Shown piece by piece: positions 5,830 to 63,660 of a stretch of DNA of 64,000 nucleotides. Numbering within the stretch: position 1 is the stretch's first letter; each line of letters begins with the position of its first letter. The translations under genes were made by a program, and so were the position numbers. The DNA is from Lepidostoma basale. Its lineage: Eukaryota > Arthropoda > Insecta > Trichoptera > Lepidostomatidae. Location of the stretch: assembly GCA_022606425.2 (NCBI GenBank), contig JAHDVF020001368.1, positions 186,001 to 250,000 of the forward strand, written 5' to 3'. Below the pieces are notes generated by a model. The model was not told the DNA's origin, made no database searches, and saw only the letters and a list, made by a program, of their open reading frames with translations.

Positions 5830-5930
5830 TAGTAAATGTAATAACACCACTTTATTTGGTAACACTAACCGGTTTCGCTCCCCCCAGAGCTTCGTCAGGG
5901 TGAGAGAGTAAACAAAATATAAAATCAGAG
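5830..5930 (-). mobile_element. FB-6 element, one arm
   Basis: Homologous to 37525-37585 ('ccactttatt' and 'agagcttcgtcag'). Contains the 5.87 kb hammerhead-like motif. Confidence 0.5.
5863..5903 (-). ncRNA. hammerhead-like motif (FB-6 family), intact core
   Basis: Minus strand C-U-G-A-C-G-A (5898-5892), stem II GCUC/GAGC with a G-rich loop, G-A-A-A-C (5876-5872), CGG, U-U. Stem I pairs CAC with GUG after one mismatch at the junction. All invariant core bases are present. Confidence 0.55.
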
Positions 5931-6098
5931 AACAACCTATGAAGAAATATATATAAAGTGGAGAGGAGAAAGAGTGGGGGGAGGAGAAAGTGGATACGGA
6001 CGAATAGACTGTTAAAACGGTGAGTCATGCTCATTAAGAAACATTTTTATTTTACCACTTTCTCCTCCCCGCAGAACTAGAGCCGCTGAACCGCTGAA

Positions 6099-6172
6099 CT
6101 AGAGACGTGTCAGGATCGAGTAGCGTTGTCGTCCATTCTCTCTGCCTACCCGTTCAGAGAAACGGCGTGATG
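6099..6172 (+). mobile_element. LINE-A 3' tip
   Basis: Last 70 bp only ('gtgtcaggatcgag' to 'aaacggcgtgatg'). Confidence 0.6.
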
Positions 6173-6235
6173 TTTTTTTTGTTGTTTAGATTTCTGTTTT
6201 TCGGGGAGTTTTAGTGCGAGCGAACATCCTACTAT

Positions 6236-6465
6236 TGGTTAATTATACGAATGAAAACGTCTGTTTTCTAGAAGTTGTATTATATATTATGGGAATGACA
6301 TGTTTTATCTGTCTACATTTTATTGACATTTGATAATGCATTACACAGGCGAAACATATCATTTACATAAATATTATAAAACTTCTAAAAAACAGACGTT
6401 TTCGATCGTATTAATTATGCAATATGAAATTTTAAATCATTGTTCAAGAAACAATAAATACACTA
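6236..6465. mobile_element. FB-1 foldback element
   Basis: Inverted arms beginning 'aatgaaaacgtctgttttctagaag' on the left, with their reverse complement on the right, then the family tail ending 'caagaaacaataaata'. Loop-proximal hammerhead-like variant at 6328-6368. Confidence 0.75.
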
Positions 6466-6639
6466 TTGGTTGGTAAGATTAGAGTTATATGTAAATCGAA
6501 GAGTTTTTAGAAAGATCGGACATGTTATTGGTTGATTAGATTAGAGATACCCTATGTATGAGAGAGTTTTTAGAGAGAACATAGATATATGTGTTTTTTT
6601 GGAGGTTTGGTTTTTGGTTGGTTGGACTGTCAATTTGAC

Positions 6640-7078
6640 AGTTGATTTATATGTCAGTACGTTTTGCCATTTCACCATGAATAGACTGACGTCAGAACAG
6701 CGCTTGCAAATAGGGCAAATTTATTTTGAAAATCATCGTTAGGTTCGCCCAACTTATCGTGCACTACGTCCATTTTACGGTCGACATAATCGTCCATCCG
6801 AGCAAGTTATTCAGAAGACCGTGAATCGTTTTCGCACCACGTACACTCTAGTGGATAATACGCATCCGCAAAGACGACAATTGTCGAAAATTGGATTTCA
6901 CGATTGCGCTTCATTCGAGCTAGCCGTGGCGCTCATATACCCGAAATCATATTTAAACAATAATGGCATAAATCTATCTATTAAATAAAGCCAATATCAT
7001 AGACATTAACATTATTTTAATGTGTTTTTTTTTTCATTTTGAATATGTATTGTATACCTCTAAAAAAGACACCCTATA
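6640..7078 (+). mobile_element. internally deleted DUF4817-type (Tc1/mariner-like) transposon
   Basis: Contains MNRLTSEQRLQIGQIYFENH, stop, [20 protein letters not shown], the N-terminal helix-turn-helix of this transposase class, joined directly to a C-terminal tail (RGAHIPEIIFKQ). The catalytic middle is missing. Confidence 0.75.
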
Positions 7079-7180
7079 CTATTGGTTGATTAGATTAAAA
7101 TTAGATATCGGAAAGCTTTTAAAGATAGTAGATATACCTACTATTGGTGGATTAGGTTAAATGATAGCGTAGATCACTAA

Positions 7181-7350
7181 TAATAATAATAAATTGGATA
7201 ATTTATAGAGCGCCATTTTTATGAATTACTCATCTCAAGGGCGCTGTAGAAGATGCTCCGTTTTATCGACTAGATAAAAATAATAATAATGATAACAATA
7301 ATAATAAACATATTTAGTATGAGGGCTGCACCTGACGTAGTCGATCAGAT
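7181..7350 (-). mobile_element. LINE-I 3' UTR fragment
   Basis: About 97% identical to 2329-2500. Confidence 0.7.
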
Positions 7351-7554
7351 ATGTAATAATGCTTTTAATCTTGAACATGGACTTGGATCTTCTAGCCTAC
7401 AGAGATTCGGCTCATTTGACTCTTCTCCTTACGTCTGATCGGACGATTGTTGGAAAGGTGTAACATGCAATATAGATTTTTAGATTAAAATTAAAGCAAG
7501 CAATACAATTTCAAAGCAAGGGCAGACACAGTAAAGACCAAACAAATGTTTAGG

Positions 7555-7862
7555 ACTTCCGAGATGAAGACACTGAGGACGATAGCAGGCAAGACACTGA
7601 GAGATCGCGAGAGGAACACCAGAATAAGATAGATATGTGAGGTTGATTATATTATAAGATGAAACAGACAGCGAAAAAGGGACTGATACGGTCATGTTCA
7701 AAGAATGGACCACCAAACTTCCCTATATTACACTACATAATCACCTTTTTGGGACTCGTCCTCGTGGAAGACCTCCTAAAAGATGGAAGGACAGCTGGGA
7801 GTCTACCTCATTGGAAGAGCAACACTCTGGAGAACAGACCACATAGGAGAAGAGATTAAAAA
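7555..7862 (+). mobile_element. LINE-E 3' fragment
   Basis: EMKTLRTIAGKTLRDRERNT-like reading, then 'gaagacctcctaaaagatgg'. Confidence 0.6.
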
Positions 7863-7869
7863 TACGTCT

Positions 7870-61245: not shown

Positions 61246-61249
61246 TATC

Positions 61250-61495
61250 ATCAACCACCGAGTGGTGACTGTAAAATGGCAATGGGCAGGTCACGTAGCC
61301 AGAAACTCAGATGAAAAATGGACAAGAAGACTGCTGACTAGGCAACCGCAACTACAGCGGAAGGATGATCTGAACAAACACGCCGGAATAACCCGGATGC
61401 AGTCTGCACAAGACACAGTGATATGGAAGCGAATGGAGGAGGCCTTTGTCCAGGAGTGGATGGGAATAGGCTGAGGTAGAAGAAAAAGAAGAATA
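61250..61495 (+). mobile_element. LINE-C 3' fragment
   Basis: [20 protein letters not shown] to EEAFVQEWMGIG stop. Confidence 0.75.
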
Positions 61496-61889
61496 TAATA
61501 TAACAAACAGCCTAAAAGGGGATAACTTTTATAATGGGAGAGCATAAAAAATTGGCTTGCAAAGTGGGCGGAGCGATGAAAACATTTGGGAACCTATGAT
61601 ATTTATAGTCTTCTCCTTTGTATCAATGACAAGGCCTTATCTCTCATATTTCTCTCTTGCCATTGCAGTGGAAGGTTTGGCCAACTTGTGTCCTCTCCAA
61701 GGGAACCAAGTGTGCTGTTTTAGTACCACCACATGTTACCATGTTCATGATTAACTTTGTAAAAATGGCATGTTGATTTGTGGGGATAAACTAGAATTAT
61801 ATTTAGCCTTTATAACAAAACTTAATCACCGTATAATGAACCACATTTTATATTTACATGTCTCAATGAGACCATATGAAAGAATAAGT

Positions 61890-62278
61890 ATATGAGAACT
61901 AACAGTAAGGTCAGAATATACAAAACTTGCATAAGGCCTATACCGACATATAGCATTGAGACCAGAGCGGATACTACAAAAAAGAAGGTTAAAGTGCGGG
62001 TGGCAGAGATGCGGACACTGAGGATGATATCAGGAAAGACTCATCGAGATAGGGTGAGAAACACGGCTAGCTGCAAATTCTACAAGGTGGAAGATATCGT
62101 AAGATGAATTGATACTGGAATGCGCACTTGCAGAGGATGACTCCCTCCAGAATCCCACACGTTGTGGCGCACCAGATTCCTGTTGACTACCGTCCCCCCG
62201 GAAGACCGTCGAAGAAATGGAGGGATAGCTGGGAGTCAACCTCCCAAGAGAGGAAAGGTCTAAAAGAAGATGAAGATG
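61890..62278 (+). mobile_element. LINE-E 3' fragment
   Basis: KVRIYKTCIRPIPTYSIETR to PPGRPSKKW and 'gaagatgaagatg' end. Confidence 0.75.
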
Positions 62279-62439
62279 TTACTTTATAAATTGAAAATGG
62301 CTGAAATCAGAAAAAAAGTTCTTCTCTAATATTATACTCAATATAAATACTAGTTCTGATTTTGAAAATTTGGTTTGGTTAATGTGTGGCTCCCGTAAAT
62401 TTTGAGATATTTCGGGTATAAGTGAATTGTTTTGGTTAA

Positions 62440-62605
62440 TTTGATTGTTGCCGCACTTTATAATAGTTAGTTGTGACACGAATAAGTTTTTACTGTTTTG
62501 ATGTTAGTTGTGACACGAAATAAGTTTTTACTGTTGTTAGTGAATATAAATTTAATAAACACAAATGTCCGGATCGTCCAAAAATTCATGTTCCTAAAAG
62601 TGTAG
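62440..62605 (+). repeat. R400 repeat, 5' part
   Basis: Homologous to 25551-25800; an internal 36-bp block ('gttgtgacacgaataagt') is tandemly doubled. Confidence 0.6.
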
Positions 62606-62949
62606 GTTACCCACATTTCGTTTATTGGGTATAATAAATTCTTTTTATGGGTCCTTCAGGAAGAAAATATTGAAATATATTGCTGTGTTTATTGCATATT
62701 AAATGACTCATTGTGGTTCAATGTAAATTGTTTATTGTATTATTAAATGGTTATTAAGCCACTTTATTATCATACGACAATATGTCATCAATGCCTTCCT
62801 GTTCATAAATCACTGGAGCTTAGCTGTCGTATCAATTGCAGTATGATTGGAACATAATTATTAACTGCATTGTTGAATATTTATAATCTATTCAATTGCT
62901 CATAAAGAAGAAGATAAAACACTTGCGTAATTTGTTTTTAACTATGTGA

Positions 62950-63165
62950 ATGGATTTCAGAGTCGAGGAAGACCGAGGACAAAATGGCACGACCAAATTA
63001 ATCAAATTTCAATGATCGGCCATATTTGAAGTCAGGAGAATTAACATGCATGTATGACTTGCTGTATGAATGTAGTGTAAGGTAGAGAGGTGTATCAGGA
63101 TAGAGTAGTGTGGTGGTTCAGTCTCTCTGCCTTCCCTTTCGGAGAAATGGAGTAATGGTTTTGTT
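62950..63165 (+). mobile_element. LINE-A 3' fragment
   Basis: 'gtcgaggaagaccgaggac' to 'ggagaaatggagtaatggtt'. Confidence 0.6.
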
Positions 63166-63365
63166 TTTTCTAACCAATCGGTTTGCTCCTATCAGAACTT
63201 CACCGGGGAAACAAAATAAAGTGAAACATGTTTTTTTGCGATTTTGTGAAAATCCTTGTAACTAATCTTTCTGGTGATGTTTTGGAGATCGTTGCAGTCT
63301 CTATCTTCAGGGTGGTTATGGTTTAAAAAGCCAAGTTACAAGGATTTTCCCAAAATCCCAAAACA
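63165..63365. mobile_element. foldback element, FB-6-like
   Basis: Inverted arms 'aaaatccttgtaacta' and 'agttacaaggattttcc', with 'ccaatcggtttgctcctatc' on the left resembling FB-6. Core decayed (CCGGUGA; GCAAAC). Confidence 0.5.
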
Positions 63366-63474
63366 CATATTACTACCAATTGTGAAAATCTACACAATTA
63401 TTAAACTGAACCATTGTTGATGGTTGAGGTATTAGTTTTGTAAAGCTCCATTATTAATTTATAATAGTAAACAT

Positions 63475-63660
63475 GATTGTTTCGTGGTTTTACTTGGATT
63501 TAATTTATATAAATAGTGCCAAATTTGTTTTGCCTGTCGACTGTCAGTTTGAGAATGCCCTCGCAAGGCGAAACAAATTTGCCACTATTTATATAAATTA
63601 AATTCTAGTAAAACCACTAAATGATCGTGTTTGCTATTATTAATTAAACTGAACCAGTTA
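63475..63660. mobile_element. FB-12 foldback element with U3-A8 core
   Basis: Arms 'gtggttttacttggatttaa' and the inverse at 63590-63620. Plus strand UUGAGAA (63549-63555), stem II GCC/GGC, G-A-A-A-C (63570-63574), palindrome CAAAUUUG. The U expected at the cleavage site is C. Confidence 0.6.

Follow-up and report, generated by a model that had tools for sequence, protein, structure and literature searches.

Penelope-like elements (PLEs) are the closest described relatives of the sequences considered here. In the passages on Penelope from Adineta vaga (PMC3846280), the pseudo-long terminal repeats (pLTRs) are ~200 bp long and are arranged head to head in inverted orientation with palindromic junctions, an optional 31-bp tail at the 3′ end of one inverted pLTR extends the start of the open reading frame (ORF) from 12 to 22 codons, and target repeats of 8–10 bp, solo pLTRs and insertions in trans are described. 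The purified Poseidon protein of Anolis carolinensis (PAc) cuts and extends both DNA strands, and it initiates reverse transcription within the RNA, close to the 5′ part of the ORF, with two start sites flanking the tail (PMC11167929). The Poseidon ORF begins at stem II of a hammerhead ribozyme, the ribozyme cut lies 26 nt downstream, and insertion persists when the ribozyme is mutated (PMC11167929). PLEs have conserved minimal type I hammerheads that lack a normal helix III and lie in the pLTRs (relevant passages of PMC7761336). Natural hammerheads with a U3-A8 pair exist and are active in vitro (relevant passages of PMC3088659). Here, we compare these systems with a cluster of ribozyme-bearing elements in a 64-kb stretch of the trichopteran Lepidostoma basale (assembly GCA_022606425.2, contig JAHDVF020001368.1, positions 186,001 to 250,000), referred to below as the window.

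Sixteen ribozyme-bearing loci have been listed in the window (Table 1). They are very probably ORF-less PLE insertions consisting of one pLTR, or of two pLTRs placed head to head, together with a short tail corresponding to an ORF start. Since the pLTR, tail, junction, target-repeat and ribozyme features are present but no ORF is, we call them pLTR-only Penelope products, and they are best read as having been inserted in trans by PLEs elsewhere in the genome. The kind of element is known; several unrelated families show the same insertion footprint. As in Adineta vaga, there are head-to-head pLTRs, a junction, a one-sided tail, target repeats and single pLTRs. On the other hand, the copies in the Adineta passages mostly enclose an ORF or captured host DNA, whereas here the pair stands alone with arms of ~90–110 bp, and those passages make no mention of hammerheads, whereas hammerhead-like cores are present here.

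The arrangement of CUGANGA, stem II, GAAA, A15.1-U16.1 and H17 is found in these cores, with an extra base after A9. A strict descriptor (CTGANGA without mismatch, a stem II of at least 4 bp, GAAA, a short stem III and TH) gives six matches, compared with a mean of 0.13 and a maximum of two in 100 dinucleotide shuffles. A second descriptor, composed after the first matches had been seen, requires C3-G8 or U3-A8 (complementary or near-complementary positions 3 and 8), stem II, GAAAC, a palindromic stem III of 6–10 nt and H17; it gives seven matches at six loci in the 64 kb (two are the arms of one foldback), compared with a mean of 0.037 and a maximum of two in 300 dinucleotide shuffles and none in the reversed sequence. 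As the matches lie far above the shuffled controls with both descriptors, a chance motif has been rejected. All seven matches to the second descriptor have exactly one extra base between A9 of CUGANGA and stem II, which is U in six and A in one (5898); it is also A in the GCUUG core at 12026. The initial annotation makes no mention of this base. The strict descriptor loosened to one mismatch gives 11 matches versus 3.0 per shuffle, and with two mismatches 36 versus 25.8. Weak single loci are therefore not trustworthy on the motif alone.

The hammerhead-like cluster reported in the initial annotation is therefore confirmed, and its count of at least a dozen loci holds when the many decayed copies, recognised by homology or by eye, are included; indeed, most of the ribozyme copies are decayed. 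Two candidates have been left out of the count. The stem II of 52012(-) is poorly paired. The site at 21043(+), where stem II is paired and CTGAAGA is exact, is a strict match for which no family, arm or tail has been recognised, and it may be due to chance.

One core from each of seven families has been compared in a hand-built, padded alignment whose numbers lean towards structure; in it, 83% of the cells are paired versus 61% after shuffling, and the covariation score is 0.649 versus 0.235 after shuffling and at most 0.235 with the partners slid. Stem II is paired in 97% of the cells and has changes on both sides at four of its six positions. Positions 3 and 8 can pair in all seven families: four have C-G, two have U-A (F1 and 63550) and one has U-G. 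The descriptor test is free of the hand-fitting bias. With unrelated hairpins, a paired stem II and complementary positions 3 and 8, the likeness between the families is structural rather than copied, as had been claimed. The replacement of C3-G8 in F1 and in the 63414 foldback resembles the natural U3-A8 hammerheads (PMC3088659, in the part concerned), although the ribozymes here are predicted ones. The cores also resemble the PLE and Terminon hammerheads (Cervera & de la Pena 2014; Lunse et al. 2017, as reported in passages of PMC7761336 and PMC6466107), which are type I with almost no stem III and, as here, are dispersed in non-coding animal DNA and in PLE pLTRs; dimeric cleavage has been reported for others of this kind. 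In dimer folds of our cores, the palindromic stem III pairs in some.

The extra base after A9 creates an AUG in five of the seven families. The minimal pLTR hammerhead, with C3/G8 ahead of a start codon at stem II, is like that of Poseidon, and the predicted self-cleavage site after H17 lies 25–30 nt into the A9-AUG in the four cores counted, compared with 26 nt in Poseidon.

Eleven of the elements are foldbacks, whose two inverted, head-to-head arms meet near the 5′ edge of the ribozyme, and four or five are single copies without an inverted partner. The self-identity of the arms spans 82–96%, so that the insertions differ in age, provided that the arms of each were identical at birth. Exact direct repeats of 10–14 bp, flush with arm and tail, bound six of the 11 foldbacks as discrete insertions. 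In these six, the left arm begins 0–15 nt after the left repeat, a one-sided tail follows the right arm (35–52 nt in five, 66 nt in one), and the tail-less arm ends 7–17 nt before the tail ATG. No target repeats of at least 10 bp were found at the seven single loci searched.

From the self-comparison of the window, 14 short-range palindromes have been read, and eight of them have a flank repeat of at least 10 bp, six being counted as flush with arm and tail; such a repeat occurs anywhere in the flanks of 37 of 1000 random flank pairs. The flank repeats of 26867–27539 and 50304 have been dropped, since they are not located at the element ends. A ribozyme remnant is recognised by eye in 10 of the 14 palindromes and in none of those at 2180, 13133, 26643 and 26867–27539. 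A sliding scan additionally flagged 13981 (an F1 remnant), 21421 and 45661. The inverted repeat at 26867–27539 has arms of ~280 nt that are 88% alike and no recognised ribozyme, and is possibly a miniature inverted-repeat transposable element (MITE). The foldback at 13133–13284, whose 96% identical arms enclose a short central loop, has yielded neither a hammerhead nor a tail or target repeat; it gives sub-threshold matches to two microRNA families, as any hairpin may give.

Inverted arms and short target repeats would also be expected of foldback or MITE DNA transposons in which the hammerhead-like motifs are accidental. This explanation is very improbable and has been rejected on account of the one-sided tail: the ends of the elements are asymmetrical, with 35–66 nt lying outside the inverted repeat at one end. 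Also, the core is far above chance and is common to unrelated arms.

The tail starts with ATG-GAR-NTN-NAC (MEFY, MELY or MEFH) in F1, GGAGG, GCC (63414) and the 53342 foldback, and by analogy with the described PLEs it would be the beginning of a PLE ORF. The distance from the first base of the core to the tail ATG is 95, 95, 85, 103 and 97 nt in the five copies measured, where 85 nt belongs to the 12496 copy with its shortened right-arm ribozyme. The pattern ATGGARNTNNAC occurs seven times on the two strands of the window, six times at the tails of F1, GGAGG and GCC copies and once, at 53344(-), at the end of the decayed foldback 53342–53586, whose self-alignment score of 48 is just above the best background of 46 and under the scan threshold of 50. 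This search is weak alone, with seven occurrences versus 1.59 per shuffle (maximum six) and six of the seven in the families from which the motif was taken.

The ends of the F1 family, which is present in the window as five foldbacks and three fragments, bear most clearly on how such insertions may arise. These positions are BLAST ends, good to a few bases, and the tail end of the reference copy is set by its target repeat. Four of the six tail-less arms end at reference offsets 100–103, and the other two are truncated at 85 and 88. The tail-bearing ends lie at offsets 145–154 in six of seven copies and at 133 in the seventh; an eighth copy has no tail. Of six left arms, four stop 2–4 nt 5′ of the ribozyme core and two lie inside the ribozyme, while the right arms start 2–13 nt 5′ of the core, capped by the reference start. 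This pattern of two starts and one junction, all recurrent, fits a model in which both strands prime, at two internal sites, and the two recurrent ends resemble the two reverse transcription start sites that flank the Poseidon tail (PMC11167929).

In the mechanism that we propose, a PLE protein encoded elsewhere would make a staggered cut in the target, and reverse transcription would start within the PLE RNA, close to the 5′ part of the ORF rather than at the RNA 3′ end. The cDNA would extend through the pLTR to the RNA 5′ end just upstream of the ribozyme, each pLTR beginning at a putative minimal type I hammerhead with a 6–10-nt palindromic stem III. Each of the two target strands would prime at its own internal site, and the resulting cDNAs would meet in head-to-head orientation where the pLTR has its 5′ end, which would leave inverted arms, a tail on one arm and a target repeat of 10–14 bp. 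The template was probably not cut by the ribozyme before copying, since the ribozyme itself is included in the copies; this agrees with the insertion of Poseidon ribozyme mutants (PMC11167929). The protein, the cleavage and the start sites have been measured in Poseidon, whereas here we infer them. We tentatively propose that two-sided target-primed reverse transcription, with the cDNAs joined at the ribozyme 5′ edge, has left the ORF-less pLTR pairs as its footprints.

Alternatively, the arms might come from snap-back self-priming, in which a single cDNA or an antisense template would prime its own copying at a palindrome close to the pLTR 5′ end. Self-priming has been proposed for the head-to-head pLTRs with palindromic junctions in the Adineta passages (PMC3846280), and the F1 junctions do lie near the core, with most left arms stopping just short of it, so this origin is possible rather than probable. 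A snap-back copy, however, should contain the tail or stop variably, whereas the tail-less F1 arms share one end point in four of six cases, and in all six repeat-bounded copies the tail-less arm ends shortly before the tail ATG. The ability of the Poseidon protein to cut and extend both strands (PMC11167929) also speaks against it. The fixed F1 3′ ends favour both-strand priming, without proving it.

The initial annotation had offered another origin, a non-autonomous set of ribozyme elements. As self-standing, retrozyme-like units, these would propagate independently as foldback RNAs or circles. At least seven ORF-less families occur within 64 kb, F1 alone being present in eight foldbacks or fragments, and non-long-terminal-repeat (non-LTR) retrozymes are known in animals as short ORF-less elements with type I hammerheads (passages of PMC7229834). 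The retrozymes in those passages, however, are direct tandem repeats with RNAs of ~170–400 nt, unlike the head-to-head pairs with a one-sided tail seen here, and the self-comparison of the window shows no direct tandem copies of the units, for which reason an animal retrozyme has been rejected. The tail, moreover, has a conserved coding-like ATG that a non-coding element would not need. Such a set is improbable, and the claim of a separate family set finds no support, because the anatomy is that of published Penelope insertions. The other claims on anatomy fared better: the foldbacks with asymmetric tails are real by self-comparison and element anatomy, and the suggested link with Penelope is borne out by the head-to-head arms, one-sided tail, target repeats and minimal hammerhead.

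Several results weigh against the assignment to PLEs. Target repeats are missing from the ends of five foldbacks out of 11. The GCUUG tail has an ATG followed by a different sequence (MSNHKVNA) and lacks the ATGGAR motif, as does GCCAAC. GCUC and GCUUG have AAG rather than AUG after A9. In Poseidon the ribozyme AUG opens the ORF, whereas here its frame closes after 2 codons in F1, 11–20 in GGAGG and 13 in GCC and never reaches the tail. Stem I is weak, with 60% of its cells paired (17 of 21 for the inner three pairs). Free RNA folding gives the full hammerhead shape in none of six isolated cores, so folding alone gives no support. In a foldback transcript, moreover, the two arms would pair with each other. 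A six-frame Pfam scan of the whole 64-kb window gives no match to the GIY-YIG domain, and its two RVT_1 matches both lie within non-LTR elements. Finally, the Rfam hammerhead models give no match at E ≤ 10 in the window, nor with the 28144 locus alone, and a covariance model of our own (R1, trained on six cores of four families) finds no F1 copy and no GCCAG core at E ≤ 10.

The initial annotation had made the Rfam result the measure by which its hammerhead claim should fall, and formally the claim does fall by it. In a control, all eight phage-contig loci tested match the Rfam hammerhead models at E ≤ 10, although below the Rfam gathering scores (none of six passes, and all eight lie below). 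These eight, out of 120 fetched, belong to phage contigs chosen by the canonical string CTGATGAGTCC...GGACGAAAC. R1 recovered the held-out copies of its families at 17823, 17758 and 12555 and also reached the 63414 foldback (E 0.064) and 53400–53446(-) (11.9 bits, E 0.11); among ten control loci from phages it located the canonical string in six, with a best score of 17.1 bits. We read the Rfam failure as a limit of the models, given the extra core base and the near absence of stem III, and not as absence of the motif. The cores are filed as hammerhead-like, of the PLE type, and not as members of the Rfam families. At least 120 stretches of viral contigs in IMG/VR (L001–L120) carry the canonical string, and two family-specific DNA patterns have no match in IMG/VR.

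Table 1. Ribozyme-bearing loci and further F1 fragments in the window. Cores are given as core, extra base, stem II and downstream part; target repeats are given with their left and right positions.
Locus	Feature	Position	Strand	Arm self-identity	Ribozyme core	Tail	Target repeat
29746	F1 foldback	29746..29993	+	94.8% over aligned columns	UUGAUAA-U-GCCUU..AGGGC-GAAACAUGUC, minimal hammerhead in both arms	ATG 29950	TTCTCATCAT, 29736-29745 / 29994-30003; same 10-mer again at 29713
6241	F1 foldback	6241..6461	+	82.8%		45 nt, decayed: ATG-GAG reads ATG-AAA	ACTATTGGTT, 6231-6240 / 6462-6471
19669	F1 foldback	19669..19898	+	82.3%		35 nt, ATG 19870; end ambiguous because the target repeat resembles the tail	AATAAATATCC, 19658-19668 / 19899-19909
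50304	F1 foldback	50304..50527	+		decayed	motif at 50503	none at ends
33349	F1 foldback remnant, two arms	33349..33472	.			none recognised	none recognised
	F1 fragment	11351-11725
	F1 fragment	14018-14295
	F1 fragment	39492-39602
12496	GGAGG foldback	12496..12716	+	95.6% over aligned columns	full in left (-) arm, 12555-12594; shortened in right arm	ATG 12676 (MEFHSVNALAFNK)	AAAAATAAGACA, 12484-12495 / 12717-12728
58547(-)	GGAGG single pLTR, no inverted partner found; left limit approximate	58420..58552	-		58512-58552(-)	ATG 58444(-), MEFHSV...	none found
22205(+)	GGAGG ribozyme core, single copy	22200..22240	+		CUGAGGA-U-GGAGG.CCUCC-GAAACAUGUU
28144(+)	GCCAAC ribozyme, single copy	28139..28184	+		CUGAUGA-U-GCCAAC..GUUGGC-GAAACAGCUGUA
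33186(-)	GCCAAC ribozyme, single copy	33146..33191	-		one stem III mismatch
17687	GCCAAC foldback	17687..17930	.		remnants in both arms, 17823-17868 (+) and 17758-17803 (-)	none recognised
11910	GCUUG foldback	11910..12201	+		CCGAGGA-A-GCUUG..CAAGC-GAAACUAGUC, left arm, 11990-12031 (-)	66 nt with ATG (MSNHKVNASYKN)	ATTATTTATCAAAA, 11896-11909 / 12202-12215
63414	GCC foldback	63414..63642	-		UUGAGAA-U-GCC..GGC-GAAACAAAUUUGC, 63544-63588 (+)	ATG 63451(-) (MELYKTNTSTIN)	ATTAAACTGAACCA, 63400-63413 / 63643-63656
33692	GCCAG foldback	33692..33788	.		UUGUCGA-U-GCCAG..UUGGC-GAAAC, 33754(-)	none recognised	none recognised
5898(-)	GCUC ribozyme, single copy	5862..5903	-		CUGACGA-A-GCUCU..GGAGC-GAAACCGGUU
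53342	Decayed foldback, pointed to by its tail motif	53342..53586	-		weak ribozyme-like core CCGAUGAUGAAG.., 53400-53446(-)	motif at 53344(-) (ATGGAGTTTCAC, MEFH)	none of 9 bp or more

The window is eukaryotic and repeat-rich, with a GC content of 31–39%. Pieces of non-LTR reverse transcriptase (RT) elements are numerous in it, and their longest ORF lies at 50522–51529(-); its nearest organism-named matches are insect proteins, while its best matches overall are metagenome proteins. The weaker of the RVT_1 matches (+ strand, E 4.1e-4, under the family cut-off) is placed at ~8472–8702. This position falls within one of 15 stretches on the + strand with matches to the same RT set as this ORF. 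The six-frame Pfam scan has thus found no ORF with both RT and GIY-YIG in the window, and no foldback is claimed as an autonomous Penelope element, in line with the earlier observation that no Penelope RT is seen. Three exon stretches resembling Tfb4, a TFIIH subunit, lie on the + strand at 35272–35439, 39055–39198 and 39801–39950, and one F1 fragment (Table 1) sits between the last two. Copies of a tRNA-like repeat, similar to a short interspersed element, have been observed at 998–1186, 38545–38732, 43497–43670, 49064–49251 and 30529–30683. Self-comparison alone shows a tandem array with a period of ~16 bp at 18293–18708. A DUF4817 helix-turn-helix domain is found at 6689–6841(+), and two translated pieces of the window give weak protein-kinase matches.

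A non-exhaustive literature search found no report that treats hammerhead-bearing, ORF-less pLTR pairs as a class, and we make no claim of novelty. PLE-type hammerheads with an extra base after A9, some of them with U3-A8, may escape the Rfam models and so be under-annotated. As to the origin of the inverted terminal repeats and one-sided tail of Penelope elements, two-strand priming and snap-back become testable against each other by comparing the arms of young copies, given repeat-bounded minimal copies from several unrelated families in which the 3′ ends and the junction recur. If true, two-sided priming would explain at once why Penelope elements have inverted pLTRs, a single tail and target repeats, and its minimal products would have accumulated here from at least seven PLE families.

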